Position numbers and translations under genes: made by a program. A DNA stretch of 64,000 bases from Limibacillus halophilus (GTDB taxonomy: Bacteria > Pseudomonadota > Alphaproteobacteria > Kiloniellales > CECT-8803), in assembly GCF_014191775.1 (NCBI RefSeq), contig NZ_JACHXA010000009.1, positions 1 to 64,000 of the forward strand, read 5' to 3'. Numbering within the stretch: the first letter of the stretch is position 1; each line of letters starts with the position of its first letter. Positions 1 through 27,412 of the stretch are shown one piece after another. The notes beneath the pieces are model-generated. The model made no database searches. It was not told where the DNA came from and was given only the letters and a program-made list of their open reading frames with translations.

Positions 1-459
1 GTTCGAGAAGAAAGGGCGCGTTCTGAGTTGAAGAGGTTGTAGACGGAGGCATGAACGGCGGCGAATTGCTGCAAACTTCGCATCTGCCTGAAGCGCAGCA
101 TAGCTTGCTCCCGTCGTCGGAATCGCAGATGCGAATTCTCAGCGCGATTGCTCAGCCAGCGGCTACATTCCTGTCTGTAGGCATTGCCAATGATCTTCAC
201 GATCATCTCGTCCAGGTGCCATCGCCAGAGGCTTGACCGCATGCTCTGGATCCGTCGCTTACGGATCTCGGCTGCGAACATTGGACCGAACCGCTGCCAC
301 CAAAAGCGCACGGTCTCGTGGCTGATATTGATGCCGCGCTCGCGCAGAAGATCCTCTACCTTCTGAAGTGAGAGAGGAAACCGAATGCACATCATGACCC
401 GCCAGGCGAATGATCTCGGGGCTGGTCTTGAAGTATCGGAATGGGCTGCGTTTGCTCAT
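1..459 (-). pseudogene. IS6-family transposase remnant, frameshifted and internally deleted
   Basis: Read on the minus strand from an ATG at 459, the first 22 codons (MSKRSPFRYFKTSPEIIRLA) match the N-terminus of IS6-family transposases as I know them. An extra G near 400-403 then shifts the frame. In the next frame, family-like sequence continues (FPLSLQKVEDLLRERGI, then HETVRFWWQRFGPMFAAEIR, then WRWHLDEMIVKI). It jumps straight to the C-terminal part (NRAENSHLRFRRREQAMLRF), which runs off the window edge. Roughly 85-90 codons of the DDE core, including the second catalytic Asp region, are missing. I could not identify terminal inverted repeats. The following 460-614 holds no gene that I can support. 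This is a dead element that marks past insertion beside the sensory locus. Confidence 0.8.
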
Positions 460-614
460 GATTTGGCGCTAGAACGTCGCCTTGGGCGCCGCGGTGCTTA
501 TTGCTCTGACATCTTCGCGCGTGTGAAAAAAAGTAAAAAAGACCCCAATAGGCCATGAAAGCTGGTACTCCAGTGGGACGAAACGCTTCTTGATTTAGGT
601 TGGTTGTAGAAAAT

Positions 615-2234
615 ATGTTTAAAAATGCCGCGCTATACTCATTATTAGCTGCTTTGATTTGCGCCTCCCTGGTGTATGTCACGACCAGCGCGATAACCGA
701 AGAGCGATCTTTGGATCGGCAGCGCCAACTCACCAATCAGTTATCGGCGACGCGCGCCAGGATCGAGTTAAGCCTCTTCAACAAGCTCAGCCTGCCGATA
801 GCCCTTGCCAGTTTCGTAAAATCAAACCGCGATTTCACTGAAGCGGAGTTTGAGCGCTTCGCCACCGCTCTAGAGGAGCGTGTCCCAGGCGTTTTGAGCT
901 TGCAGCTGGCGCCTGATGCTGTGGTTACGTACATCACCAACAAGGAACAGAACGCAAAGGCTATCGGACATGATCTGGTTGCCGACCCAAATCGTGTAAA
1001 AGAAGTATTGGATTCCATTAGCCGGAACGAGTTCATCGTCGCCGGACCGTTAACGTTGATTCAGGGCGGCAGCGCCATTATCGCCCGGTTGCCAATCTTC
1101 CTTGAGGGTGTGACATCACGTACGGGCATAGAGAATTTTTGGGGGTTTGCCACTGTTCTCGTCTCGGCCGATGCTGTTCTAGGCCCGGACCTGCTTGGAC
1201 GTTTCGAGACAGAGAAATCCGATCCGTTTCGCATCTCTGTTCGCGGCAAGCATGGGCGAGGCGAAAGCGGTGATATGGTGTTTGGCACCGAGGAGGATTG
1301 GGATCGCCGCGACGGTTCGCTGGAAATTCTACTGCCGAACGGTTCTTGGGTGATTGGGGGCACATTCCTCGCCCACCCTTCGAACTGGCTCTTACTGATT
1401 TTGGCGCCAATGGTTACTGGTGTTGCGGTGTTTATCGGCTTCTACATGACCTTGTCCGCGCAGGAGCGGTTAATTCAAGCCACCAAGGACAACGCGAAAC
1501 TACAGGCGGAAATGCTGGATCGTGAGAAATCCTTGGCGCTGTCAATGATTTCAAGCGGGGTGGCCCATGAGTTCAATAATCTGTTAATGGCTATCTCCAG
1601 CACTGTGGATGTCATCAAGCTGGATGATACCTTGAGCGAGCAAACCCTCGAAGATGTATCGTTGCTAAAAGGCGAGACCAAGCGAGGTCAAAGGCTAACA
1701 CAGCAGTTGCTGGCCTATAGCCGCGAGATGGAACTCAGCCCGCAAACGGTGAAGCTGAGCCAGCTCATAGCACAAACCCTCATAATGGCGCGCCCAATGG
1801 TCGGTGCGAGCATTACGATAGAATTGAAAAGCGATGACGTTTCCGATGACGAAGTCAGGCTTGACGTAGCAGAGTTTAAAGGGGCGCTTCTAAACCTCGT
1901 CCGTAATGCTCAGGACGCGATGCCAACGGGTGGTACGATAGCCTTCTCCGTCGCGGGCGCGACTAGGCGCACGACTTCAGGTGATGAGAAGAACGAGAAT
2001 TGGGTCGAGCTGCTAGTGGTCGATACCGGTGTTGGGATGTCTCAGGAGGTCCTTTCAAACGTTCTCGTGCCTTTCTACACAACAAAAGAGGTAGGAAAGG
2101 GTACGGGCCTTGGGCTGCCTATGGTAGCGGGGGTGGTTGAAGCATCGAAGGGTGAGTTGTCGATCAGCAGTATCGAGGGAAAGGGAACAACGATCCGGAT
2201 TCTATTGCCCGCTGCAACCGCCACCCTGTCATAA
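615..2234 (+). CDS. Sensor histidine kinase with CHASE-like periplasmic domain
   Basis: This is an inner-membrane two-component kinase of about 539 residues. A first membrane helix (about residues 5-24) is followed by a periplasmic region of about 220 residues. That region looks like a CHASE ligand-binding domain (RARIELSLFNKLSL, then FERFATALEERVPGVLSLQL). A second helix spans about 258-280. The cytoplasmic core has an H-box with the phospho-acceptor His near 318 (SGVAHEFNNLLMAI), an N-box (LLNLVRNAQDAMP, about 426-438), a G1 box (DTGVGM, about 470) and a G2 box (GKGTGLGLPM). There is no attached receiver domain. ATG at 615 is chosen; an in-frame TTG at 600 is possible, and neither has a strong ribosome site. 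It converges on a second kinase with a near-identical H-box. The likely partner regulators are the two response-regulator genes at 4.7-6.0 kb. Confidence 0.85.
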   Translation: MFKNAALYSLLAALICASLVYVTTSAITEERSLDRQRQLTNQLSATRARIELSLFNKLSLPIALASFVKSNRDFTEAEFERFATALEERVPGVLSLQLAPDAVVTYITNKEQNAKAIGHDLVADPNRVKEVLDSISRNEFIVAGPLTLIQGGSAIIARLPIFLEGVTSRTGIENFWGFATVLVSADAVLGPDLLGRFETEKSDPFRISVRGKHGRGESGDMVFGTEEDWDRRDGSLEILLPNGSWVIGGTFLAHPSNWLLLILAPMVTGVAVFIGFYMTLSAQERLIQATKDNAKLQAEMLDREKSLALSMISSGVAHEFNNLLMAISSTVDVIKLDDTLSEQTLEDVSLLKGETKRGQRLTQQLLAYSREMELSPQTVKLSQLIAQTLIMARPMVGASITIELKSDDVSDDEVRLDVAEFKGALLNLVRNAQDAMPTGGTIAFSVAGATRRTTSGDEKNENWVELLVVDTGVGMSQEVLSNVLVPFYTTKEVGKGTGLGLPMVAGVVEASKGELSISSIEGKGTTIRILLPAATATLS

Positions 2235-2306
2235 TCTCCGGGCGCTATGTCAGAGGTGCAATGAACGGGAGCGATTTGAGCCGTTCAAGTGGCACACTGA
2301 AGAAGG

Positions 2307-2342
2307 CTTGTGGTCCGGTGCCCGTGCCGGACGAGGCACAAG
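2307..2342. terminator. Inverted repeat between convergent kinase genes
   Basis: CTTGTG (2307-2312) pairs with CACAAG (2337-2342), and inside it TCCGG (2314-2318) pairs with CCGGA (2327-2331). The structure sits between the stop codons of the two convergent histidine kinase genes. There is no T-run on either strand, so intrinsic termination is uncertain. Confidence 0.35.
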
Positions 2343-2355
2343 AGCAAGCGCAGCC

Positions 2356-3735
2356 TTAGTTTGAGACGGGTAAATATATGCTCGCGCGCGTGCCTCTGCC
2401 GGACTTGCTTTCGATTGTGATAGCACCGTTGTTTGCCTCGGCAATTCGCGACACGATCCCCAAGCCAAGCCCTGCGCCTCTTCCCGCAGCTTTCGTTGTG
2501 TAGAAGCTCTCGCGGCAATGTGCCAGCACTTCGGGCGTCATTCCCGTTCCGTTGTCCGACACCGATAGTACAAAATAGTTCGCCTCGGTAAGACCAAGGG
2601 ATTTCGCGGCGGTCCGACGAAGGGATATCGAGCTGCCTGCCAAAGTGATGTTGCCGTTGTTTGTAGCATCTTCGGCATTGCTGATGAGATAGCTTACTGC
2701 CGTTGTCAAACCACTAACATCGACCCGCAACCTCAGGTCACTCCCGGTTGGCTTCGCGTCAAAGGAGTTGCGCTTGATAATAGTCTCCGCGGCGGCGGTG
2801 CACGCCTCGAAGAGTTCCTTTGCCGGCAAAGACCGAACATCCGTCGGAGCGTGCCCGATAAATCGCAACAGGCGTTGCGTCAAATCTACTCCGCGCCGTG
2901 ATTCTTCATGGATCGCTTCGAGATCCTGGAGTGCCTGCTCCCGGTTCCCATCGAGGGTCTCAAGACGAGCCATTTCGACGGTCGAGCGAATTGCCATCAG
3001 CAGATTATTGAATTCGTGCGCGGTACCGCTGGACATACTGATTATGGCGTTTTGCTGGCTTTCTATTTTCTTGCGGGCTTGCTCTCTCGCACGCGATGAA
3101 CTGATTACGAAGACAATCAGCGTGGCGATGGCGCCGAACAGTACGAAACCCAGACCGAGAATGTACTGAAACTTCCTTTTTAGGCCCGAATACAGGGACG
3201 TCATTACCTGGCTTTCGAGGAACAAACCGCCAAGCGCCACATTCCGTACCTTCAAGCCCCAGGGCTCCAATTGCGCCCTGAGAGGTTGGAGTTCGGCTAT
3301 TTTGGGATTTTTTGAGATCGCGACCCGCTCGTTTGAGAGCAGCAGCGCTTCCAAGCCTGAAACAAGGTCGTTGCCGCTCTCGATCTGGCCAATCATCGCA
3401 GCGGGTTGGCCCTCATTGAAAATATCAATCCGGCTCCAGAATATGGCGTATCGCTGATAAAGCATACTGCCGGCGCCGCCTTCCACAAGGCGCCCCTTTT
3501 CGATCTGACGGATCGTCGAATCGATGGCGCCGACAAGGCGATATAGTTCGATTTCGAGCTGGAACAGGTGGTAGTCGATCCGCTCGTGAGGCGCTTGATT
3601 CAACGATCTTTGCGCGCTTGTGATTCCCACACTGATCCAGGCGCCCAGCGAGATGCAAACCACAATGATGATCGCGACTAACGTGTATGTCACTTTTGGC
3701 AGTGGCAATGCGGATAGGAGCGCTTGCTTCGTCAA
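2356..3735 (-). CDS. Sensor histidine kinase with unclassified periplasmic sensor region
   Basis: A membrane histidine kinase of 459 residues. Transmembrane helices lie at about 16-38 and 189-212 and flank a periplasmic region of about 150 residues that I do not recognise; it is helical-looking and differs from the CHASE-like sensor of the neighbouring kinase. The kinase core has the phospho-acceptor His near residue 240 (SGTAHEFNNLLMAI), an N-box-like segment (YLISNAEDATNNG), DNGTGM and GRGAGLGLGI. It is strikingly close to the core of the kinase at 615-2234, so the two probably arose by duplication with a sensor swap. The start is a TTG at 3735, because no ATG precedes the first helix. The gene is divergent from the sulfite-oxidase-fold gene at 3969. 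Confidence 0.83.
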   Translation of the reverse strand: MTKQALLSALPLPKVTYTLVAIIIVVCISLGAWISVGITSAQRSLNQAPHERIDYHLFQLEIELYRLVGAIDSTIRQIEKGRLVEGGAGSMLYQRYAIFWSRIDIFNEGQPAAMIGQIESGNDLVSGLEALLLSNERVAISKNPKIAELQPLRAQLEPWGLKVRNVALGGLFLESQVMTSLYSGLKRKFQYILGLGFVLFGAIATLIVFVISSSRAREQARKKIESQQNAIISMSSGTAHEFNNLLMAIRSTVEMARLETLDGNREQALQDLEAIHEESRRGVDLTQRLLRFIGHAPTDVRSLPAKELFEACTAAAETIIKRNSFDAKPTGSDLRLRVDVSGLTTAVSYLISNAEDATNNGNITLAGSSISLRRTAAKSLGLTEANYFVLSVSDNGTGMTPEVLAHCRESFYTTKAAGRGAGLGLGIVSRIAEANNGAITIESKSGRGTRASIYLPVSN

Positions 3736-3968
3736 GGAATGACTCTTTCTTTCTAGGTAGACACGAGCCGGCGGATCGGTTGTTTTTTTAGCTCAGGCGT
3801 TGCATACAAGCCTGGGTGCGACGCTAAAACCTCGGCACCTGAACGCCATCTTAAAAACAATTAATAAGCTGCTTAGCAGGTAACCTGTCGGTCTTATGTG
3901 GCGATGCGACGCACTATGTCGACATCCTCACCACCTCCAATTTTACCTAGATGAAAGGCGCCAGTTTG
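3736..3968. promoter_or_regulatory. Divergent intergenic region with CAGGTAACCTG palindrome
   Basis: This 233-base gap separates the divergent kinase and sulfite-oxidase-fold genes, so it should hold promoters for both. It contains an imperfect palindrome, CAGGTAACCTG, at 3877-3887. Its core GTAACCTG recurs at 6082-6089, upstream of the pilus operon. I cannot assign firm -35/-10 boxes. An operator role is inference. Confidence 0.35.
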
Positions 3969-4508
3969 ATGAGTAGTTTTCCTATAGCAGTCCTGCAGCG
4001 CCGCCGGGCCTCGAAATCGCCGGCGTTGGCTTTTGCCTTTCTACCCCTTATCGCGTTCCTCGCTGTTGCAGCGTTCACGGTCTCAGCTTCGGCGGAGCAG
4101 GTTCTCCTGGAAATTTCGACTGATGAGTCCGGCGACAACCTACGCCGTTACGATAGAGCCGATCTTGCCGCGTTAGAACAGCAGACCATCCGAACGTCGA
4201 CTGCTTGGACCGATGGTGTGAAGGTGTTCAAAGGGCCCCTCGTCCGTGACCTGCTGACCGCCGAAGAAGAGCAGGCTTTTGAAACTGTTGAGGCGGTTGC
4301 AGCCAACGACTATCGGGTTTCTATCCCGATGTCGGATTTTGTTTCCTATGACGTGATTCTTGCTACCGAAATGGACGGCCAAGAATTAACGCTTCGCGAC
4401 AAAGGGCCTTTGTGGATCGTCTACCCAAGAGACGATTACACTGATTTGAATCAATCCGCTGTCGATGCCCGTTGGGTCTGGCAGCTTGTCCGGCTTGAAA
4501 TGAACTAG
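3969..4508 (+). CDS. Secreted sulfite-oxidase-fold (molybdopterin-binding-like) protein lacking cysteine
   Basis: A protein of about 179 residues with a signal peptide: an RRR-containing n-region, a hydrophobic stretch LAFAFLPLIAFLAVAAF, and a likely cut after SASA. The mature part resembles the small oxidoreductase molybdopterin-binding (SUOX-fold) domain family. The resembling segments are WTDGVKVFKGPLVRDLL, NDYRVSIPMSDF and GPLWIVYPRDDY. No cysteine occurs anywhere, so the Cys that ligates molybdenum in catalytic sulfite-oxidase relatives is absent. A catalytic Mo enzyme is therefore unlikely, and a binding or sensing role in the periplasm is more plausible. ATG 3969 is preferred because AAAGG lies 10 bases upstream; ATG 3951 is in frame but has no ribosome site. 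Its place inside a kinase/regulator cluster suggests it serves those sensors. Confidence 0.72.
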   Translation: MSSFPIAVLQRRRASKSPALAFAFLPLIAFLAVAAFTVSASAEQVLLEISTDESGDNLRRYDRADLAALEQQTIRTSTAWTDGVKVFKGPLVRDLLTAEEEQAFETVEAVAANDYRVSIPMSDFVSYDVILATEMDGQELTLRDKGPLWIVYPRDDYTDLNQSAVDARWVWQLVRLEMN

Positions 4509-4511
4509 ACG

Positions 4512-4572
4512 CGCTTCATCTGAAGCGAATGGACGGCGTCCGGCTTGGCCCCCCACCATGGCCGGACGCCGT
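4512..4572. terminator. Two adjacent hairpins between convergent genes
   Basis: CGCTTCA (4512-4518) pairs with TGAAGCG (4521-4527). Next to it, a perfect 12-bp stem pairs 4533-4544 (ACGGCGTCCGGC) with 4561-4572 (GCCGGACGCCGT). They lie just after the stop of the sulfite-oxidase-fold gene and downstream of the convergent OmpR-type regulator. No T-run follows, so they may block 3' decay or assist Rho rather than act as a classical terminator. Confidence 0.5.
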
Positions 4573-4713
4573 ACCGACGCTAGCCTCTTCCAAAAGCGCT
4601 CCTGCAAAAGTCAGATGCACCAAATGCCATCTCAGGCTTGCTGGCACCCCGGCCTAGTATTGCGGCTACGCGCCGTCGCGCGGAGTAACTGCAACCCGGG
4701 AGCCATGTCTGGC

Positions 4714-5406
4714 CTATTCGTTGGTCAGAAAAACATATCCCTCGCCGCGCACCGTTCGTACACGCTCGTTGTTGGGATCGAGGATCTTCAACGCCTTGCG
4801 AATCCGGTGAATATAAACGTCCAGGGATCGATCATCCGGGTCCAGAATTCTCCCGCGTGCGAACTCATAGAGATGTTCACGACTAACGACTTTGTTGGGG
4901 CTGGACATCAGGTAATGCAAAAGTTTGACTTCCCAGTCTGTTAGATCAATGACCGCCCCGTTCTTGCGCGATAACTTTCCTGCAGTTCGATCCAAAGTAA
5001 TGTCGTCGACCACGATTTCACCGGTCCGCCATTCGCCGGTTGAACCGCTGCGTGAGATGTTTCGACGCAAACGGGCGGCCAATTCCTCCAGATCGAATGG
5101 CTTCAGGATGTAGTCGTCGGCACCGGCATCAAGCCCTTTAATCCGGTCTTCTAGATCCGCCCGACCGGTTATCAGCAGGATCGGCTTGTCAGTGAGCTCC
5201 CGAAGTACTTGGGTGAGGGCGACACCGTTGCCGTCGGGTAGGTTGATATCCAAAATGAAGGCATCAGGCAGTTCGTCCGAGATTGAGGCGCGGAGCTTGG
5301 CTACTTTGTCAAAAGTCGACACCAAATAGCCTTCGCGTTCAAGGTAGCGTTTGACCGACCGAGCGATCTGCTCTTCATCTTCCAGCACCCAAATATACTT
5401 CTGCAT
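4714..5406 (-). CDS. OmpR/PhoB-type response regulator
   Basis: A DNA-binding response regulator of 230 residues. The receiver domain (about 1-120) has the acidic pair LEDEEQ, the phosphorylatable Asp near 53 (ILDINLPDGNG), ITG and a conserved Lys near 102 (ILKPFDLEEL). A winged-helix OmpR_C domain follows (LTDWEVKLLHYL, then SLDVYIHRIRKAL, then VRTVRGEGYVF). ATG 5406 is chosen because the receiver begins there and AGGAAA precedes it. A longer reading from ATG 5562 overlaps the upstream receiver gene by ATGA, but it adds 52 residues without domain character. It probably responds to one or both nearby histidine kinases and may act on the pilus promoter at 6.0-6.3 kb (inference). Confidence 0.88.
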   Translation of the reverse strand: MQKYIWVLEDEEQIARSVKRYLEREGYLVSTFDKVAKLRASISDELPDAFILDINLPDGNGVALTQVLRELTDKPILLITGRADLEDRIKGLDAGADDYILKPFDLEELAARLRRNISRSGSTGEWRTGEIVVDDITLDRTAGKLSRKNGAVIDLTDWEVKLLHYLMSSPNKVVSREHLYEFARGRILDPDDRSLDVYIHRIRKALKILDPNNERVRTVRGEGYVFLTNE

Positions 5407-5558
5407 CCCTGTTTCCTGTCCATCTTGTGATGATCTTGCCAACCTACTTCCCATTATCGATTTTTGCTCATTAGAGCAAACTTCGGCAGATTTGACCCCA
5501 GAAAATCCGAGATCGGCCGTGTTGGGAACTGCAATCATCCTATGGTCTTCCATTTTTC

Positions 5559-6014
5559 TCATGTCTTTGCTTCCGTCGGGTCGACCTTTGCCTGCAAAGG
5601 CTTAAACGGTGCTGAACCGTGTGTTTCCACCAGTATTTCCAGGCTTGAAAGTTCGAATGGCTTATCGATCCAAGCGGTGAACGGATCGTCGTAGGCGCAA
5701 CCATTCCCCAGGTTGTCCGGGCGAGCGCCGGTCATACATATGATAGCCGGCCGGTTGGCGGCGAGATGTTGCTCATGAATGTTCTGCGTCAGGTCTGCGC
5801 CCGACATCTGCGGCAGGTCGTAATCTACGAGGATTACGTCAAACGTATCCCGCTGCAGAGTTTGAATCGCAATTGAGGGGGTCTCCGCTTCGGCAACGCG
5901 GTACCCGGCACGGGTCAGCCACAGATTGACCGATCGGCGGGTAAGTGGATTGTCGTCGACAATCAACACCGCCGCTTTTTGGTTCGTTTTCACAAAGTGC
6001 TCATTTCCAAACAT
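5559..6014 (-). CDS. Stand-alone receiver-domain response regulator
   Basis: A protein of 151 residues made of a single CheY-like receiver. It shows the acidic pocket (VLIVDDNPLTRRSVN), a phospho-acceptor Asp near 64 (VILVDYDLPQMSG), a Thr in CMTGA and a Lys in IDKPFELSSL. There is no output domain, so it may relay or buffer phosphate between the two kinases and the OmpR-type regulator directly downstream. The last bases overlap a possible upstream ATG of that regulator, which suggests translational coupling. The start at 6014 faces the pilus operon across an AT-rich divergent promoter region. The exact role cannot be read from sequence. Confidence 0.82.
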   Translation of the reverse strand: MFGNEHFVKTNQKAAVLIVDDNPLTRRSVNLWLTRAGYRVAEAETPSIAIQTLQRDTFDVILVDYDLPQMSGADLTQNIHEQHLAANRPAIICMTGARPDNLGNGCAYDDPFTAWIDKPFELSSLEILVETHGSAPFKPLQAKVDPTEAKT

Positions 6015-6278
6015 TCTTTGGCCTCTCCAGCTGCGACCCTATGATTCATTTGTCCAGAAGATCGTAAAAAATAGAAAACAAGTAACCTGATTAAGTGTTT
6101 TTAATATTCAGATGTTTTTTAATAATAAATCTATAATTCCGCAGGTCTTAGAAAATTATCTACGCGGAGCGATAGAAATAGAGTGGCTAATATTTAAAAC
6201 AGTTAAAAATTTTCTTCTTATTCCAATGAATGGTCCTTTCTGCGAGCCAAATGGCTGTCGTATCAGAGGAGTAAGAAA
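6015..6278. promoter_or_regulatory. AT-rich divergent control region of pilus operon and receiver gene
   Basis: These 264 bases are much more AT-rich than the surroundings, and they lie between the divergent receiver gene and the first pilin. TATAAT at 6132-6137 is a candidate -10 for the pilin operon, but no good -35 sits at normal spacing. GTAACCTG at 6082-6089 repeats the core of the palindrome at 3877-3887. GAGGAG just before ATG 6279 is a strong ribosome site. AT-rich DNA of this kind often attracts silencing or xenogene-type regulators such as MucR, but that is inference here. Confidence 0.5.
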
Positions 6279-6827
6279 ATGAATGCAAACTACAAATTCG
6301 CAGTTGTCGGAGCCGTTGGGTTTCTGGCTGCTGTAGGTAACGCCGAGGCCGCAGGCGAATTGCGCGGCAACATGGATGTCCTTTTGGACATCGGCACGGG
6401 TTGTGCCGTCAACGTCGACACTTCCGGCGGCGAAAACCAGTGGGGCACGGTCGATTTCGGGTCGCAAGCGAGCCTCAGCAATATCATTGATGCGGAATCT
6501 TCGGGGACCACATCGGCGAACCAGCTGGAGATGACGTGTAACACGGGTCTTCCCTACGCGATTGGGATCGACTTGGGCCAGAACCAGTCCGGGGCCAACA
6601 CGCGCCGCATGTCGGGCGTGGTTTCTGGAGAGTTCGTTGCCTACGAGCTTTATCAGGATGCAGCGCATACACAGGTTTGGGGCCAAATTGGCACCGCCGG
6701 TGAGCTGCAGTCCACCGGCACAGGCGCAGCGCAAGAGTACGTAGTTCATGGACGTATTCCAAGCGGCCAGACCACGCCGTCAGCGGGATCTTACAAAGAT
6801 ACGGTCCGCGTGACCGTCCGCTGGTAA
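6279..6827 (+). CDS. SCPU-domain pilin, first and probably major subunit
   Basis: A secreted protein of 182 residues of the spore coat U (SCPU) family, the pilin type of archaic chaperone-usher pili. The signal peptide ends near residue 24 (GNAEA). The domain has the usual Cys pair (C42 in GTGCAVNV and C87 in EMTCNTG), a VDFGSQASLSN strand motif, the VAYELYQDA segment and a C-terminal SYKDTVRVTVRW strand. It is first in the operon behind a strong ribosome site and is followed by an intercistronic hairpin, as is common for abundant pilins. The name reflects family history only; sporulation is not implied. Confidence 0.88.
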   Translation: MNANYKFAVVGAVGFLAAVGNAEAAGELRGNMDVLLDIGTGCAVNVDTSGGENQWGTVDFGSQASLSNIIDAESSGTTSANQLEMTCNTGLPYAIGIDLGQNQSGANTRRMSGVVSGEFVAYELYQDAAHTQVWGQIGTAGELQSTGTGAAQEYVVHGRIPSGQTTPSAGSYKDTVRVTVRW

Positions 6828-6847
6828 GCGAAACCGCTCCTATCGAG

Positions 6848-6878
6848 ATCTCGGGTTCGTCACTGGGCGGCCCGAGAT
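6848..6878 (+). other. Intercistronic hairpin after first pilin
   Basis: ATCTCGGG (6848-6855) pairs with CCCGAGAT (6871-6878) around a 15-base loop, in the 115-base gap between the first and second pilin genes. No T-run follows. Such a hairpin could protect the major pilin message or cause partial termination, giving more of the first subunit than of the downstream ones. This is inferred by analogy with other fimbrial operons. Confidence 0.45.
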
Positions 6879-6942
6879 TCTCTCCCTTGAGACAAAAATC
6901 CCAAACGATGGCTTGAAGTCAAAGCCAGTACGGAGGTTAGGC

Positions 6943-7506
6943 ATGCCGCATGCATTGCACAAAATTCGAAACCTGGCAGTGAAGGTCGCTGGCCTGGGCT
7001 TCGGCTGTGTGCTGGCGATGTCAACAGGCTCTCCGGTTGGTCCGGCCTGGGCGCAAACGGCGATGTCGGCGATCGACCTAAAGGCGGAAGTGGTGTCGAG
7101 CTGCGCGGTTGCCGGCCCCATCCTTACCGATGGTCAGATTGATTTCGGCCAACTGCACTTCGGCGATCAAAGCGATCTTTCAAACTCGGTAACCACCCAA
7201 GGTGGTGGGCAGGACGGTGTGATCACGGTTACCTGTTCGCAGGGACAGGCCTACACGATCCTAATGGACGGCGGGAATAACGCCAATGCGGGGCGCCGGA
7301 ACATGGTCTTGGACGGCACCTCTGTTGCCTACGATCTCTACACGGATTCAGCGCACAGCAACCTATGGAACGATAGCACGGGAAAGCAGGCTATCGGTAG
7401 CGGTGCGCCTGACGATCACGTTGTTTTTGCAAAGACTTATCCGACAACCGCACTGGTTGCCCCTGGTCGTTACAGCGACCGGGTTGGCATCACGGTCAAA
7501 TGGTGA
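6943..7506 (+). CDS. SCPU-domain pilin, second subunit
   Basis: A protein of 187 residues with a signal peptide ending near residue 37 (GPAWA). The SCPU fold is shown by the Cys pair C54 and C98 (SSCAVAGPI and TVTCSQG), IDFGQLHFGDQSDLSN, VAYDLYTDSAHSNLW and a final YSDRVGITVKW strand. ATG 6943 is used because GGAGG at 6932-6936 sits just upstream; an in-frame TTG at 6913 is less likely. It is a paralogue of the first pilin. The next gene starts inside its final codons, so the two are probably translationally coupled. Confidence 0.86.
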   Translation: MPHALHKIRNLAVKVAGLGFGCVLAMSTGSPVGPAWAQTAMSAIDLKAEVVSSCAVAGPILTDGQIDFGQLHFGDQSDLSNSVTTQGGGQDGVITVTCSQGQAYTILMDGGNNANAGRRNMVLDGTSVAYDLYTDSAHSNLWNDSTGKQAIGSGAPDDHVVFAKTYPTTALVAPGRYSDRVGITVKW

Positions 7507-8066
7507 ACGCTATGAAGCAGAATTCAAGCACGGCTTTCAGCGCCCTCTTCTTTGTATCCGCGTTGCTTGCATCGGTCATGGTCTTGATTGGTCGGAGCTC
7601 CGCTCAGTCATTGACCGAAACCAAAGAGGTCGTATTCCGGATTCAAGTCGTAGAGGGCTGCGCGTTGGGTGTAGGTGCTACCGATCCCACAAGCCTTGGC
7701 CTGATCGACTTTGGACAAGTCAGCGATCTGTCCAATCCGATCGACGCGACCGGTGGGGCAGGAGCAGGTGGTGTTGTCGTCACCTGCACACCAGGCACGG
7801 CCTTCACGATGGCGATTGATGCCGGCCTCAATGGGCCGTCGACGGTAGACCGCAAGCTGTTGAACGCCGACATCGGGCAAACGCTTGACTACCAACTGTA
7901 TTGGGATGCCGGCCGGACGACCGTCTGGGGTGACACACCCGGTCAAAGTGCCGTTGCCGATGGCTCTGAGCAGGTTTTCCCGGTCCATGCGCGCCTAGTG
8001 ACCTCGGTCACATTGCCGGCGCCCGGAATCTACACCGACAGGGTCCTAGTGACCGTTACATTTTAA
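7500..8066 (+). CDS. SCPU-domain pilin, third subunit
   Basis: A protein of 188 residues with a signal anchor or peptide (FSALFFVSALLASVMVLIG, likely cut after RSSAQ). The SCPU features are C54 and C96 (EGCALGVGA and VVTCTPG), LIDFGQVSDLSN, LDYQLYWDAGRTTVWG and the terminal strand YTDRVLVTVTF. It overlaps the previous gene by 7 bases (ATGGTGA). ATG 7512, preceded by GGTGA, is an alternative start. It is a third pilin-like subunit, either minor or structural; its order in the pilus cannot be told from sequence. Confidence 0.85.
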   Translation: MVNAMKQNSSTAFSALFFVSALLASVMVLIGRSSAQSLTETKEVVFRIQVVEGCALGVGATDPTSLGLIDFGQVSDLSNPIDATGGAGAGGVVVTCTPGTAFTMAIDAGLNGPSTVDRKLLNADIGQTLDYQLYWDAGRTTVWGDTPGQSAVADGSEQVFPVHARLVTSVTLPAPGIYTDRVLVTVTF

Positions 8067-8078
8067 GGGGTACGCGAT

Positions 8079-8873
8079 ATGTTTGGAATGAATGGAAGTG
8101 TGAAGTTTCGGATCAGGATGTTCGTCATCATGGTCCTTACAATGATCACCTTTTGCTATGCCATCTCCCTTGGCAATGCAGCATCCGTGATGATTTCGCC
8201 CATCAGCCTGAACATTGGTTCAGAAAAGCCGGCCACGCTGCTGACGCTCAACAACCTTGGCGACAGTGACATTGCAATCCAAGTTCGCATAAAGCGTTGG
8301 GTTAGCGGTGGGTTCCAGGACACTCTGGTCGACCAAAGTGAGATCATTGCCAGCCCCCCCTATGTTGTGATCCCGGCCGGCGGTAGGCAGATCGTTCGCC
8401 TCGTCGACACCAATCGTGGTCAATCAAGCGATGGTGAGATGCCTTACCGGGTTTTGGTAGATGAGATTCCGCGAAGCGGGGTCGGCGAAGGTTCCGCAGG
8501 CAACGTATCCTTTCAAATGCGGTATTCGGTTCCTCTGTTTGTGGGTGGACCGGAGCTCAACGCCGCCGATCCCGAACAGCGTCAGGTTCTGGCAAACGAC
8601 TTGAGTCGGAATCTGAAAACGACTGTGGTCACCTCAAGCGACGGTCAGCCAGCGTTGAAAGTGTTTAACGGTGGTTCCTATCACGCCCGGATAACAAAGC
8701 TCCGTGTTCGGGGTGTGGATGGTCGTGCCGTACCAGTTGCAGAGGGGCTCCTTGGCTACGTGTTGGCGGGTGAAGAAGTTCAGTTCCCTATGCCCTCGGC
8801 GATCTCTGCGCTCCGCCCCGGCGCCAGTCTCGTAGCGGAAGTCAATTCCGTCGAACTTCTCCTCATCAATTGA
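8079..8873 (+). CDS. Periplasmic pilus chaperone (PapD-like)
   Basis: A protein of 264 residues with an N-terminal hydrophobic signal (MFVIMVLTMITFCYAIS). The first immunoglobulin-like domain shows family segments: SVMISPISLNI for the G1-like edge, PATLLTLNNLGDSDIAIQVR, and IIASPPYVVIPAGGRQIVRL. These are followed by PYRVLVDEIP, close to the usual YR(V/L)xxxE(I/V)P motif. A shorter second domain follows (ALKVFNGGSYHARITKL). It should cap and fold pilin subunits in the periplasm and deliver them to the usher encoded next. AAGGGG lies before the ATG. Family identity is firm; subunit specificity is unknown. Confidence 0.9.
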   Translation: MFGMNGSVKFRIRMFVIMVLTMITFCYAISLGNAASVMISPISLNIGSEKPATLLTLNNLGDSDIAIQVRIKRWVSGGFQDTLVDQSEIIASPPYVVIPAGGRQIVRLVDTNRGQSSDGEMPYRVLVDEIPRSGVGEGSAGNVSFQMRYSVPLFVGGPELNAADPEQRQVLANDLSRNLKTTVVTSSDGQPALKVFNGGSYHARITKLRVRGVDGRAVPVAEGLLGYVLAGEEVQFPMPSAISALRPGASLVAEVNSVELLLIN

Positions 8874-8907
8874 TCTGACAACCCAGTTTTTCGGAGGCTT
8901 GTGTCTG

Positions 8908-11238
8908 ATGCGTCATTTCTGCCAGGCGATAATCGCGCGGCTCCTCGTGGCTTCCATAACCACAGGAATGGCGTCGCTCAACCATGCACAGGCTTCTGAG
9001 GCACCTCAAGCCGCTGAAGCAGCCACGCTCCTTTACCTTGAGTTGGTGGTGAATGAAGTGTCGCTACGAGACCTCGTGGAAGTCAGACGGGACGGCGAAA
9101 GCTTGATCGTGACCCTGGGCGACCTGATGCAGGCTGGACTGCTTCTTGAAGGGTCTCCGGATTCCCAGGTAGACGCCAACTCCTTGCCGGGCGTAACGGC
9201 CTCCTACGATGTCGAAGGGCAGCGTTTGATGATCCAGGCGGACCCGGACCTTTTGCCAAGACAGACACTCAACAGCCGGAACCGCGTTCAACCGATGCGG
9301 GCCGAGCGCGATGCCGGTGGTGTTCTGAGCTATGATCTCTATATGACCGGAGGAACCGAACAGGCCTCCTCCGCAAGCCTTTGGAACGAGGTGCGCGGTT
9401 TCAACGACTTCGGTTCGATCTCAACTACGGGAGTGTTTCGTTTTTTCGAGGACTACAAGGGCGAACTGAATCAGGAGTATCTGCGGTACGACACTTACTG
9501 GGCCTTGGAAGACCAGGAAAGCATGCTGCAATTCCGGGCTGGTGACCTGGTGACGGGGTCGCAGGTCTGGTCACGGTCACTTCGCTTGGGTGGGTTCCAG
9601 ATTTCCAAGGACTTCAGTCTGCAACCAAGCCTTATCACCTATCCTTTGCCCGACTTTTCCGGTCAGGCTGTTGTTCCCTCGTCGGTCGATGTCTTCATCA
9701 ACAGCTCTCAGGTCTATTCCGGGGAGGTCGTTCCGGGACCTTTCGATATTCCATCCAACACGGTGATCAACGGTTTGGGTGACGCCGAAATCGTCGTGAC
9801 AGACGCTCTCGGTCGTCAGGTCTCCAAAACCATTTCATTCTATGTGTCCAACGAGTTGCTGAGCGAGGGCCTCTTCGATTTCAGCGTCGAAGGTGGGTTT
9901 TTGCGTGAGGAGTATGGTCTGAGCTCCTTCACTTATGACACGACGCCTGTTGGTAGCGCGACAATGCGCTACGGGTTGACTGACTGGTTAACCGCCGAGG
10001 CACACGTCGAGGGTTCGGAGGATGTGCAGAACGCCGGTGTGGGAGGTGTCGTCAAGCTTGGCAATATGGGCATCATCAACACCTCAATTGCAGCCGGGCG
10101 CGGGGACGACCAAGGGCTGCAGCTCGGGTTGGGGTACCAGTTCTCCAGCCGGAACTTCTCAATCGGCGTGCAGCATATTGAGCGGAGCGCTGGTTACTTC
10201 GACCTTGGACGGCAGAGCGGGTCTCCCTTGGGTAAACGGTCGACGCAGGTAACGGGCTCGCTCAATTTAGGTAATTTTGGAACGTTTGGCGCGGGTTACT
10301 TCCGCGTCGAAGATAACGAGCGTGATCTCTCAGAGATCGTGAATGTTTCGTACAGCCCACGGCTTTGGGAAGGGGTCAACCTCTACGCCTCTGCAAATGC
10401 CGACTTGCATGATAGTGAAAGCATGAACGTGTCGGTCGGACTCTCAATTCCACTGGGATCGTACGGCAATAGCTCGGTACGGACCCGATACGCGCGTGAC
10501 GGCGATTTGTCCTCCACTCTGGCGTACTCGAAATCCGCACCCATCACCGGTGGCCTGGGCGGTGGACTTGCCGGCACATGGGGCGATGAGAAATTCTTTC
10601 AAGGTAACCTGAACTGGAAGAGCCGCTTTATCGACACCTACGTAGGAGCCTATGGGGAGCCGTCCGAGCCCGTTGTTTGGGGTGAAGCCCGGGGTTCGCT
10701 GGTATTTATGGATGGCGCTGTATTCCCAACCAACCAGATCAGCGATTCCTTCGCTTTGGTTAGCACCAACGGCTATGAGGACGTGCCGGTCTTGTTGGAG
10801 AACCAGCTCGTCGGCACCACCGATGACAACGGCCATCTCTTGGTTCCCTGGGTCCAATCCTACAACCGTACAAATCTGTCGATCGACCCGGTTGACCTCC
10901 CTGCCGATGTTTCGGTCGAGGAGACTCGCAAGACCATTATGGCGGCCAGACGGAGCGGCGTTCGGACAGAGTTCAACGTGGCGCTTTCACAATCGGCTGT
11001 CGTCATCCTGCAGGATTCGACAGGCAAGCCGCTTGATGTCGGAACGGTCGTGAACATGGATGGTGGGGAAGCAAACCTTTACGTCGGCTGGGAGGGGCGC
11101 TTGTTCCTGGAACGGGTCGAAGAAGAAACCACACTCTTGGTGCGGCGCAACGACGCTGCCGACTGCAAAGTGGTCATTTCCTATAAGGCTGCGCCCGGAA
11201 CCATTCCCACCCTTGGGCCTTTTAGTTGTAGCGAATGA
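8908..11238 (+). CDS. Outer-membrane usher of chaperone-usher pilus
   Basis: A protein of about 776 residues, the length expected for an archaic-type usher (FimD/PapC superfamily). After the signal peptide comes an N-terminal periplasmic domain (YLELVVNEVSLRDLVEVR). A long beta-barrel region follows with many alternating aromatic segments, including the family-like stretch QVYSGEVVPGPFDIP and VVTDALGRQVSKTISFYV. The C-terminal domains contain VPWVQSYNRTNLSIDP and a terminal Cys pair (ADCKVV and GPFSCSE). ATG 8908 is preferred, with GGAGG at 8893-8897. It should receive chaperone-subunit complexes and export the fibre. Confidence 0.93.
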   Translation: MRHFCQAIIARLLVASITTGMASLNHAQASEAPQAAEAATLLYLELVVNEVSLRDLVEVRRDGESLIVTLGDLMQAGLLLEGSPDSQVDANSLPGVTASYDVEGQRLMIQADPDLLPRQTLNSRNRVQPMRAERDAGGVLSYDLYMTGGTEQASSASLWNEVRGFNDFGSISTTGVFRFFEDYKGELNQEYLRYDTYWALEDQESMLQFRAGDLVTGSQVWSRSLRLGGFQISKDFSLQPSLITYPLPDFSGQAVVPSSVDVFINSSQVYSGEVVPGPFDIPSNTVINGLGDAEIVVTDALGRQVSKTISFYVSNELLSEGLFDFSVEGGFLREEYGLSSFTYDTTPVGSATMRYGLTDWLTAEAHVEGSEDVQNAGVGGVVKLGNMGIINTSIAAGRGDDQGLQLGLGYQFSSRNFSIGVQHIERSAGYFDLGRQSGSPLGKRSTQVTGSLNLGNFGTFGAGYFRVEDNERDLSEIVNVSYSPRLWEGVNLYASANADLHDSESMNVSVGLSIPLGSYGNSSVRTRYARDGDLSSTLAYSKSAPITGGLGGGLAGTWGDEKFFQGNLNWKSRFIDTYVGAYGEPSEPVVWGEARGSLVFMDGAVFPTNQISDSFALVSTNGYEDVPVLLENQLVGTTDDNGHLLVPWVQSYNRTNLSIDPVDLPADVSVEETRKTIMAARRSGVRTEFNVALSQSAVVILQDSTGKPLDVGTVVNMDGGEANLYVGWEGRLFLERVEEETTLLVRRNDAADCKVVISYKAAPGTIPTLGPFSCSE

Positions 11239-11248
11239 GGGAACAGAG

Positions 11249-11647
11249 ATGTCCATTTTTTACCCACGTCTTTTGAAACACCTCTTCCCCTCGCTTCTGA
11301 TAGCCGTCCTTTGCGGTTTACCGATTGCAGGCTGGATGCTCAATGTCGCTCGTGCTCAGACCGAGGGGGGCGTGCTCGATCTAAATCCGCAGCAACTTCC
11401 CGGCCAAACAAGCAGTTTGCGGACGGTTGGCATGTTGGGAGTAGAATTCAAGATCACCCCAACCTGTATCGTCGAACGATTAGAGGAACTGGCATTACCT
11501 AAGTTCAGTGCCGAGGTTTCCAGCTATCGTAAGCGACATTCTTTCATCGACGGCTCTCTTTTCGTGGGCTGCACGGACCCCAATTCCTTCCATCTCGTAC
11601 GCCCGCCTCGCACTGATTCCGGCCAGGGAGCCACCATATCATGGTAA
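11249..11647 (+). CDS. Short secreted SCPU-like protein, apparently truncated
   Basis: A protein of 132 residues with a signal peptide (hydrophobic SLLIAVLCGLPIAGWML, likely cut after ARAQ). The mature part has a Cys pair (TPTCIVERL and VGCTDPN) spaced much as in the pilins, with a strand-like LALPKFSAEVSS between. It ends shortly after the second Cys (ATISW), without the C-terminal half seen in the other SCPU subunits. It could be a degenerate minor subunit, a terminator subunit or a short adaptor. It starts 10 bases after the usher stop and overlaps the tip-adhesin gene by 7 bases, so it is retained in a coupled operon. Confidence 0.65.
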   Translation: MSIFYPRLLKHLFPSLLIAVLCGLPIAGWMLNVARAQTEGGVLDLNPQQLPGQTSSLRTVGMLGVEFKITPTCIVERLEELALPKFSAEVSSYRKRHSFIDGSLFVGCTDPNSFHLVRPPRTDSGQGATISW

Positions 11648-12582
11648 GAAATCCAATCAGCAATCCAGGCCTTGGCGCGATAGTCGCCCTTGTGTTGCTT
11701 CTGTTTTCTGCTGGCGCGCGGGCTGAATGTTCTGTGTCCAGTTCGACCCAGGATATCGGCGCGATCCCCTCGGATCAGCTGCAGAACACACAGGTCGATT
11801 TTACGCTTTCGACCGGGTTTTCCTGCAACGTCCTGGCAAGTGTGGGCTCGGAGGATCGCATCGAGGCCACGCTTCTGGGATCGACAAACAATCTGGCATT
11901 GAACAACGGATCCGGTGGAAGCCTTCCATTCGCGCTGTTTCTCGATTCTGCGCGCAGCCAGCCTTTTAACGTGAACGACACCGTAGCGTTTGGCGGCTCA
12001 GAGCTTCTTAGTCTTTTCTCGGCAGCCGGTGGAGCGATTCCAATATATCTGACGACCGCGTTGGGGAACGTGCCCGCCGGCAGCTATAGCGACAGCCTGT
12101 CATTGCGTTGGGTGTGGGATGTTTGTGATCTGGGGGGGGCAGGTGATACCTGCGTCACGCGAAGCAGCGGTGACCAAGTTGTCAGCTTGACCATCACGCT
12201 GGTTGTATCGCCAGTCTGCGGGATAACCGCCGCCGAGCTTTATGATTTTGGCACGGCAACGCTCATGAGTGCAGTCGACCCCCTGAACGTGCCCATTTCA
12301 ATCGATTGCACCTTGCAACAGAGCTACAAGCTATATCTTGACGGCGGCGACAATCAGTCCGGAGGCCGGCGGAGAATGGTCGGTGCCGGCGGCAGCGTGA
12401 AGTATAATATTTTTGCGCAAGATGGCGTCACACCGGTCGGCCCAAAGGCGAAGGATTCCCTCAGTGGCTTGGGCAGCGGATTCGTTCAGTCCTTCAATCT
12501 GCTGGCAAAAGTAGACGCGTCTCAAGGTTCCCTGGCGGCAGGCCTCTATGAAGACAGAGTGCGAATAGTGGTGGAATACTGA
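11641..12582 (+). CDS. Two-domain SCPU protein, probable tip adhesin
   Basis: A protein of 313 residues with a signal peptide ending near residue 28 (GARA before EC). The first domain (about 29-180) is SCPU-like but divergent: GFSCNVLAS, LPFALFLDSARSQPF, GSYSDSLSLRWVWD. The second (about 190-313) is a regular pilin-type domain: VCGITAAELYDFGTA, DCTLQQSYKLYLDGG, LYEDRVRIVVEY. A two-domain subunit with one pilin-type module at the C-terminus, last in the operon, is the usual design of an archaic pilus tip adhesin. The receptor is unknown. The gene overlaps the previous one by ATGGTAA. The 277 bases after it (12583-12859) hold no gene I can support. Confidence 0.83.
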   Translation: MVRNPISNPGLGAIVALVLLLFSAGARAECSVSSSTQDIGAIPSDQLQNTQVDFTLSTGFSCNVLASVGSEDRIEATLLGSTNNLALNNGSGGSLPFALFLDSARSQPFNVNDTVAFGGSELLSLFSAAGGAIPIYLTTALGNVPAGSYSDSLSLRWVWDVCDLGGAGDTCVTRSSGDQVVSLTITLVVSPVCGITAAELYDFGTATLMSAVDPLNVPISIDCTLQQSYKLYLDGGDNQSGGRRRMVGAGGSVKYNIFAQDGVTPVGPKAKDSLSGLGSGFVQSFNLLAKVDASQGSLAAGLYEDRVRIVVEY

Positions 12583-12859
12583 CTATGTGGGCGGGGACGG
12601 TCGCTCTTGGTCGGATACTTTTTCCCAAAGATTAATGTGGGTGGTGTCATGGCTGGACGCTACGAAATCGCCCGACCTTGCTCAAGGTGATTTCTCTGAC
12701 AGCGCCAACCGTCTCAAAGAGCCTACTGAGACTCGGGCTATATTTTCGGCAGATCTGGGGTCCGCGGTGCGTCTCTGATAGGCCAACCCCTAGGTAACCC
12801 GCTGAAAACACGCGGTAATTCAGAGCAATTCCGAAACCTTCGAGAGAGACGGGGGTGAG

Positions 12860-12949
12860 TGGCGGAGGGGGAGGGATTCGAACCCTCGGTACGCTTTCGC
12901 GCACAACGGTTTTCGAGACCGCCCCGTTCAACCGCTCCGGCACCCCTCC
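12860..12949 (-). tRNA. tRNA-Ser(CGA)
   Basis: On the minus strand the 90-base gene begins GGAGGGG and ends CCCCTCC-G-CCA, so the 7-bp acceptor stem is perfect and CCA is encoded. The anticodon arm is GCGGT-CTCGAAA-ACCGT, placing CGA at the anticodon, which reads UCG. A long variable arm (TGTGCGCGAAAGCGTAC) marks class II tRNA-Ser. The T arm GAGGGTTCGAATCCCTC is intact. Confidence 0.95.
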
Positions 12950-26295: not shown

Positions 26296-26709
26296 TTAGA
26301 GGGTTTCCAGTGCCTTTTGGAAACGGCCGGCGTGGCTTTTCTCAGCCTTCGCCAAGGTCTCGAACCAATCAGCGATCTCGTCGAAGCCTTCCTCACGCGC
26401 GGCGCGGGCCATGCCAGGGTACATATCGGTGTACTCGTGGGTCTCGCCGGCGATAGCCGCCTTCAGGTTGGCCTGGGTTGGGCCGATCGGCTCGCCCGTG
26501 GCCGGATCACCGACCTCTTCCAAGAACTGCAGGTGCCCGTGCGCATGTCCGGTTTCGCCTTCAGCCGTGGAGCGGAAGACCGCGGCAACGTCATTGAAAC
26601 CTTCGATGTCTGCCTTCTGGGCAAAATAGAGGTAGCGGCGGTTGGCCTGGCTTTCACCGGCAAAAGCCTCTTTAAGGTTGGATTCTGTCTTGGTGCCCTT
26701 GAGAGACAT
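26296..26709 (-). CDS. Rubrerythrin, diiron domain only
   Basis: A ferritin-like diiron protein of 137 residues, cytosolic, that reduces peroxide in this family. The metal-ligand helices are seen as [57 protein letters not shown] and [15 protein letters not shown]. The C-terminal rubredoxin domain of classical rubrerythrin is missing, so an outside electron donor is needed; the Fe-S protein encoded downstream is a candidate. ATG 26709 has AAAGGGAGA upstream. The 268-base gap to irr includes an Irr-box-like sequence. Confidence 0.92.
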
Positions 26710-26908
26710 GGGTTCTCCCTTTCTGTTCAAACCTGTTCTGACAATTCGCCCCTGGGCCAAAGCTCGTCGAATCGGGCCCATTGATTAGGACCCGCGGCTT
26801 GATGCCCCGGAGCGCGTTCCCGTAGGGCGGCCCTCCTTGCGCGGCGTGCCTCGCAATTAAAAGCCGACCGTCTTTATAGGTAGAGCCGCTTCACCGGAGA
26901 GTCAATAG

Positions 26909-26925
26909 ATTAGAATCACTAAAAA
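26909..26925. promoter_or_regulatory. Irr-box (ICE)-like sequence upstream of rubrerythrin
   Basis: ATTAGAATCACTAAAAA matches the iron-control-element consensus TTTAGAA-N3-TTCTAAA at 10 of 14 positions, 6 of 7 in the left half. It lies about 200 bases upstream of rubrerythrin and just past the irr stop. Binding by Irr is inference. Confidence 0.4.
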
Positions 26926-26977
26926 CAATCAATTAGCGATCTGTCATAAATCGAATTTTTGGAATTGTAGAGGTGAA

Positions 26978-27412
26978 TCAGGCGCTCTTGCTCTGACCGA
27001 CGCGAATGATGATATCGACCTGGCGGACGGTCGTACCGTCAGGCGCTTCCGGCAATTTGGCAATCTCGATGGCGGCGCCCGGGATATCCTTGAGTTCACC
27101 ACGTTCTTCGATAAAGAAGTGGTGATGGTCGCTGGTGTTGGTGTCGAAATAGGACCGACCGGGATCAACCATCACTTCGCGCAACAAACCGGCAGTCGTG
27201 AACTGATGGAGCGTGTTGTATACGGTCGCCAAAGACACACCCACACCCGCATCCATCGCTTGGCAGTGCAGTTGTTCGGCGGTGGTGTGGCGATCGCCTT
27301 GAGCGAACAGCAGACGAGCAAGCGCCAAGCGCTGTTTGGTCGGTCGAAGACCGGCGCTCTTGAGTTGCTCAATCAGATGACTATAGGGGCGTGCCTGTAA
27401 CATGTCCTTCAT
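26978..27412 (-). CDS. irr: Fur-family iron response regulator Irr
   Basis: A protein of 144 residues. It has a winged helix (LRPTKQRLALARLLF, TAEQLHCQAMDAG, VSLATVYNTLHQFTTAGLL) and a Fur-type dimer domain with the triple His of Irr (TSDHHHFFIEERGEL). The Cys clusters of zinc-structured Fur/PerR proteins are absent. Irr is an alphaproteobacterial regulator that responds to heme status and controls iron and heme genes. The start ATG 27412 has no clear ribosome site; ATG 27403 is possible. It is divergent from fabA, a frequent alphaproteobacterial arrangement, and lies upstream of rubrerythrin on the same strand. Confidence 0.92.
   Translation of the reverse strand: MKDMLQARPYSHLIEQLKSAGLRPTKQRLALARLLFAQGDRHTTAEQLHCQAMDAGVGVSLATVYNTLHQFTTAGLLREVMVDPGRSYFDTNTSDHHHFFIEERGELKDIPGAAIEIAKLPEAPDGTTVRQVDIIIRVGQSKSA

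Follow-up and report, generated by a model that had tools for sequence, protein, structure and literature searches.

PruR proteins are described with two types of partner in the review PMC13259868: DcpA, which acts on cyclic di-GMP (c-di-GMP), and DTB, a DcpA-like periplasmic domain carried on a sensor kinase. The only PruR output worked out in that account is c-di-GMP turnover through DcpA; for the DTB kinase partners, conservation and domain content are reported and no target gene is named in the sections consulted. Two-component control of archaic chaperone-usher pili is established elsewhere. BfmSR of Burkholderia thailandensis is encoded beside csuFABCDE and is required for the effect of the pilus locus (PMC12124856), while PprAB of Pseudomonas aeruginosa directly activates the archaic CupE pilus (PMC3510237); both precedents count in favor of the reading proposed here. 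We describe a locus of Limibacillus halophilus (NCBI RefSeq assembly GCF_014191775.1, contig NZ_JACHXA010000009.1, positions 1 to 64,000, a stretch referred to below as the window) in which a sensory gene cluster adjoins an archaic pilus operon. We consider it probable that the locus represents a PruR-DTB pterin-sensing two-component module joined to the pilus, with a CHASE-domain kinase as second input, control of the pilus being what the arrangement points to.

From the left, the gene order is histidine kinase 1 (HK1), histidine kinase 2 (HK2), a SUOX-fold protein, an OmpR-type regulator, and a lone receiver; beyond them lies a divergent seven-gene pilus operon (6279-12582, plus strand). Open reading frames and Pfam searches recovered, at nearly the same coordinates, every gene named in a prior sequence-only reading of this DNA: the two kinases, the SUOX-fold protein, the OmpR-type regulator, the lone receiver, and the pilus genes (Table 1).

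The SUOX-fold protein has 185 residues, none of them Cys, and begins with a hydrophobic stretch, ending in SASA, that reads as signal peptide-like; PruR proteins are typically secreted and some 170 aa long. A PDB search with this protein found, at E-values up to 0.01, four sequences only: 7kos/7kou (2.3e-22), 7rkb (1.7e-18), 7kp2 (1.8e-16), and 7kom (1.9e-14). Three are named pterin-binding proteins, and 7kom is their close homologue. For Agrobacterium PruR (AtPruR), PMC13259868 gives Tyr104 and Trp160 as the pterin-binding residues and the missing molybdenum cofactor cysteine as a mark of the family. Residues Y121 and W177 of the SUOX-fold protein align with these two, ungapped and at the same 56-residue spacing, and are invariant across 12 homologues (alignment A2). 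Because of the PDB matches to pterin-binding proteins, the absence of cysteine, and the presence of both residues at the AtPruR spacing, this protein must be viewed as a member of the PruR family of periplasmic proteins, with pterin binding itself a prediction. That it might be an enzyme is ruled out by the absent cysteine together with the PruR residues. A possible source of ligand is a PTR1/FolM/PruA-like reductase with the motif TGGGKRIG, encoded in the same genome (G000) at C6:108113-108835, for which a generic short-chain dehydrogenase/reductase equivalog model scores above cut-off and the named pteridine reductase family comes second, below cut-off.

A partner profile was derived from the N-terminal parts of 68 kinases whose genes, in other genomes, lie immediately downstream of the closest pruR genes. 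This profile matches HK2 at 1.3e-18, and the N-terminal 212 residues of HK2 alone at 1.9e-16. The same profile also recovers PruR-adjacent GGDEF proteins (DcpA-type) from two Rhizobiales, at 3e-24 and 4e-22. HK2 residues Y55-x3-Q59-x3-E63, R102, and G109 fit the family columns, in which Gln59 and Arg102 occur in 68 of 68 relatives and Gly109 in 66 of 68. Judged by profile and residues, the periplasmic part of HK2 is a domain of the DcpA/DTB type, which makes HK2 the predicted partner of PruR. The sequence-only reading had suggested that the SUOX-fold protein presents a periplasmic signal to a kinase, and the PruR-type identity and the matching sensor domain of HK2 bear this out.

HK1 does not match the partner profile and is ruled out on that ground as a PruR partner; its CHASE domain (3e-11) precedes HisKA (3e-6) and HATPase_c (4.9e-18). 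The expectation that the two kinases receive two different inputs is thereby supported. Among the 58 genomes searched, the kinase core of HK1 has that of HK2 as its best match and vice versa, by a small margin. Both have Ser-Thr at positions H+11/+12 of the dimerization and histidine phosphotransfer (DHp) domain, where nine other distinct AHEFNN-type H-boxes from the sampled loci have Gly at H+11, a weak indication from a small sample. The mutual best matches and the shared DHp residues suggest a common receiver for the two kinases. The likely candidate is the OmpR-type regulator, whose best NCBIfam match is PhoB at 161 bits, below cut-off. Its gene overlaps that of the lone receiver translationally, through an ATGA, and the pair is divergent from the first pilin gene.

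The two divergent intergenic regions, HK2/pruR and receiver/pilin, have in common an 18-nucleotide sequence, TTAAAAACA[AC]TTAAT[AC]AG, of the form TTAA-N6-TTAA. Repetition at 10 bp is the spacing expected for regulators of the OmpR/PhoB class. With up to two mismatches, the site occurs only in the cluster's two divergent promoters within 3.48 Mb; with three mismatches it is found at four places in the genome, versus three for a reversed control. Of 300 dinucleotide shuffles, 0-1 attained the observed similarity when the width was 18-24, and 5 did so when it was 16; this pair of regions ranked joint first among 351 intergenic pairs. A third site in the window, at 26919-26936, has three mismatches and is at background level; this AT-rich site lies within 26296-27412, where a rubrerythrin gene adjoins a Fur-family regulator gene. 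The 8-mer GTAACCTG, also common to both promoters, was dropped, since it has three copies in the window and was reached in 5 of 100 shuffles. Scans for sigma-70 promoters and terminators gave nothing above shuffles.

The pilus half is, by gene content, an ordinary archaic (Csu-like) chaperone-usher operon with a predicted role in adhesion: SCPU pilins, a PapD-type chaperone, an usher, and a two-domain tip protein all lie within one operon. The usher is 35% identical to a plasmid-borne Acinetobacter CsuD and 38% identical to a Novosphingobium usher. Of the claim that this is a seven-gene SCPU operon, the seven pilus genes stand; membership in the SCPU family itself holds for four of the seven, and the sixth gene has no Pfam match.

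Table 1. Features of the sensory and pilus locus, in window coordinates.
Feature	Position	Strand	Evidence
HK1: membrane histidine kinase, CHASE + HisKA (AHEFNN) + HATPase_c; proposed second, non-PruR input	615..2234	+	Pfam
HK2: predicted PruR partner kinase (DTB type), DcpA-like periplasmic domain + HisKA + HATPase_c	2356..3735	-	Pfam, partner profile
Candidate regulator site, copy 1: TTAAAAACAATTAATAAG, TTAA repeated at 10 bp	3851..3868	+	HK2/pruR divergent promoter region
PruR-type periplasmic protein, predicted pterin-binding (SUOX fold, cysteine-free)	3951..4508	+	PDB homology, PF00174 9.6e-8
OmpR/PhoB-type response regulator, the proposed output for both kinases; an inner start at 5406 is possible	4714..5562	-	Response_reg 3.1e-24, Trans_reg_C 1.4e-20
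Lone receiver of 151 aa lacking an output domain; putative relay or phosphate sink	5559..6014	-	Response_reg 4.8e-20
Candidate regulator site, copy 2: TTAAAAACACTTAATCAG	6087..6104	-	between receiver gene and first pilin
SCPU pilin 1	6279..6827	+	PF05229 8.4e-32
SCPU pilin 2	6913..7506	+	PF05229 3.8e-25
SCPU pilin 3	7500..8066	+	PF05229 1.3e-28
PapD-type periplasmic chaperone	8079..8873	+	PF00345 4.1e-13
Outer-membrane usher	8899..11238	+	PF00577 1.6e-34, PF13953 7e-9
Small secreted protein, minor-subunit candidate	11249..11647	+	open reading frame, no Pfam match
Two-domain SCPU protein, tip-adhesin-like	11641..12582	+	PF05229 9.7e-31, two stretches

In the mechanism we propose, a pterin, probably a reduced one, would bind PruR in the periplasm, and the complex would dock on the DcpA-type domain of HK2 and alter its balance of kinase and phosphatase activity. 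The CHASE domain of HK1 would bring in a second signal, and phosphotransfer from the two kinases would converge on the OmpR-type regulator, with the lone receiver competing for phosphate. The regulator is the presumed binder of the TTAA-N6-TTAA site in the receiver-ompR/pilin and HK2/pruR regions, and may thus set pilus expression and the level of the sensor together, feeding back on the sensor. In Agrobacterium, reduced pterin together with PruR lowers attachment, which makes repression of the pilus by pterin the simpler guess as to the sign of control.

A link between sensing and pilus is favored by the divergent layout of the receiver-ompR and pilin genes, the shared site, the DHp residues common to HK1 and HK2 (a weak point), and a second neighborhood, found in genome G013 (the same record as L156), which belongs to the same taxonomic order. 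There, genes for an SCPU-like pilin, a chaperone, and an usher form an operon transcribed divergently from one that encodes a hybrid histidine kinase and PruR; the pilin scores just below the Pfam cut-off. By our own estimate, about 0.05 PruR-usher neighborhoods within 10 kb would be expected by chance, given nine usher-bearing genomes in 61. Only G013 counts as an independent pairing, because the window was chosen for its pairing. The sequence-only reading had the sensory genes switching the pilus through the OmpR-type regulator; the G013 neighborhood and the shared promoter site favor this, and the control itself is something we infer.

Several observations weigh on the other side. HK2 is divergent from pruR (3735, minus strand; 3951, plus strand), so that the canonical two-gene operon is absent here; the kinase lies downstream of PruR on the same strand in 68 of 80 related loci. 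HK2 also has Y-x7-E instead of W-x7-E, in a column made up of 65 Trp and 3 Tyr among the 68 relatives. The shared site is AT-rich, ties with another pair of regions at width 20, and came from comparing about five region pairs, for which reason we count it as suggestive and not as proof. The G013 usher is a distant relative (28% identity over part of its length) and the G013 regulator is of the NtrC type. In the 80 closest PruR loci, a kinase adjoins in 73 and a pilus in one, leaving 79 without. Among 385 genomes of the class, 33 have ushers and 85 have PruR-like proteins, and the window holds the only close PruR-usher pair. PruR is present in 0 of 20 annotated usher neighborhoods, two of which have a kinase near; of 19 distinct usher regions outside the window, counted apart from G013, 17 show neither PruR nor a two-component match alongside. 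Finally, the same genome carries, on contig 8 at 61.7-65.1 kb (L042:6712-10054), an OmpR-type regulator, a kinase, a PruR, and a lone receiver with no pilus, which makes cross-talk or a different target possible. The kinase of this second cluster has a PruR-partner domain (8e-9 to the partner profile) with the canonical W-x7-E, and its OmpR-type regulator is a paralogue (8e-61) of the one described here.

Co-occurrence in other genomes had been proposed as a check on the sequence-only reading. As an obligatory unit, sensory cluster and pilus are ruled out, the halves being separable both among relatives and within this genome; functional coupling in this genome is not refuted by these counts. 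A plasmid search, in which PruR and ushers were looked at singly, gave many separate matches. An OmpR-type regulator was found in 4 of the 80 related PruR loci; the regulators beside the other sampled PruR-DTB loci are LuxR-type or receiver-HD proteins. Most PruR-DTB loci (L030, L035, L239, L240, and about 45 more) have a receiver protein of 320-380 residues downstream; in the ones tested the output domain is LuxR-type and often follows a long central stretch with no Pfam match. At L235 and L238 (Agrobacterium sp. and Devosia), the PruR-kinase pairs adjoin receiver-HD (HD-GYP-like) proteins, an arrangement suggesting that PruR systems with a kinase partner can act on c-di-GMP breakdown as well.

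A bolder form of the coupling, which we offer tentatively and at somewhat less than even odds, is that extracellular reduced pterins, through PruR and HK2, directly switch pilus transcription, that the CHASE kinase feeds the same regulator, and that the arrangement arose at least twice, in the window and in G013. If true, this would be the first pterin-controlled pilus. The locus offers the adhesive pilus as a candidate target, along with a second input and a candidate binding site, which would allow the pterin signal to be tested against a single promoter.

It is rather unlikely, in our judgment, that the two halves are unrelated modules which happen to be neighbors on a low-GC segment, acquired horizontally, between an IS6-type element and tRNA-Ser. 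In that case PruR, HK2, and the OmpR-type regulator would control different genes, such as those of c-di-GMP turnover or exopolysaccharide, and the pilus would be under control of its own. The GC content of the segment (0.54-0.56, versus about 0.60 across most of the rest of the window) and the IS6-like copies, both where the contig ends and at other places in the genome, speak for this alternative, as do the mostly unlinked occurrence of PruR modules and ushers, the lack of an adjacent kinase at most sampled archaic pilus loci, and the pilus-less paralogous cluster on contig 8. Mere adjacency is disfavored by the receiver-ompR operon being divergent from the pilin promoter and having, in common with the pruR/HK2 promoter, a site absent from the rest of the genome at up to two mismatches, by the independent neighborhood in G013, and by the tRNA-Ser 3' end having no exact second copy in the assembly. 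That HK1 is the main input to the OmpR-receiver pair, with PruR-HK2 acting instead on a regulator encoded elsewhere, such as that of the contig 8 cluster, so that pterin does not reach the pilus, is improbable: pruR and HK2 do lie outside the operon of the regulator, and the paralogous regulator does stand beside another PruR kinase, but the marginal mutual best match of the HK1 and HK2 cores and their common DHp residues, absent from the contig 8 kinase, argue against it.

Position 1 of the window is also the end of the assembly contig and falls inside a degenerate, apparently frameshifted IS6-type transposase (window 1-520). At least ten related copies or fragments are present in other parts of the genome, and many of them cluster at 141-191 kb of contig 2. 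The low-GC interval, window 1-12600, is a possible acquired segment that stops just before tRNA-Ser(CGA) at 12860-12949. When integration at this tRNA was considered, no exact second copy of its 25-nucleotide 3' end was found in the assembly, in which this contig stops at an IS copy, and integration there is therefore so far unsupported; tRNA-Ser and rplU form a neighborhood conserved in relatives.

The sequence-only reading knew of no described system of such composition, a statement not supported in view of the described PruR-DTB systems (PMC13259868). The sensory half is of this described kind in a variant layout: pruR is divergent from its kinase, another kinase is added, and the proposed output consists of the OmpR-type regulator and the lone receiver. 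It is the pairing of PruR signaling with a pilus that appears undescribed; searches of the open-access literature for pterin with chaperone-usher systems and for PruR-DTB with fimbriae found nothing relevant. Like PruR-DTB systems (PMC13259868), the locus encodes a secreted, cysteine-free SUOX-fold PruR with the pterin Tyr and Trp, and an adjacent kinase with a DcpA-like periplasmic domain; unlike them, it has pruR and the kinase in divergent orientation, Tyr for Trp in the kinase motif, an added CHASE kinase, OmpR-type regulator, and lone receiver, and an adjoining pilus operon. With PruR-DcpA of Agrobacterium tumefaciens (PMC13259868) it has in common the PruR family, a homologous periplasmic partner domain, and an expected biofilm-related output, but DcpA is a c-di-GMP cyclase/phosphodiesterase, whereas the partner here is a histidine kinase and the output likely transcriptional. 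BfmSR-csuFABCDE likewise places a two-component system beside an archaic chaperone-usher pilus locus, although a PruR, a second kinase, and a lone receiver are not reported in the passages of PMC12124856 consulted. PprAB-CupE is again two-component regulation of an archaic chaperone-usher pilus, but PprAB is encoded in the flp-tad locus and not beside cupE, and has no pterin-binding partner (PMC3510237). The operon itself resembles those of Csu and CupE pili in its several SCPU pilins, chaperone, usher, and two-domain SCPU tip-like protein, and differs in its usher, which reaches only 35-38% identity with the closest examples on plasmids, and in having one more gene, for a small secreted protein, ahead of the tip gene.

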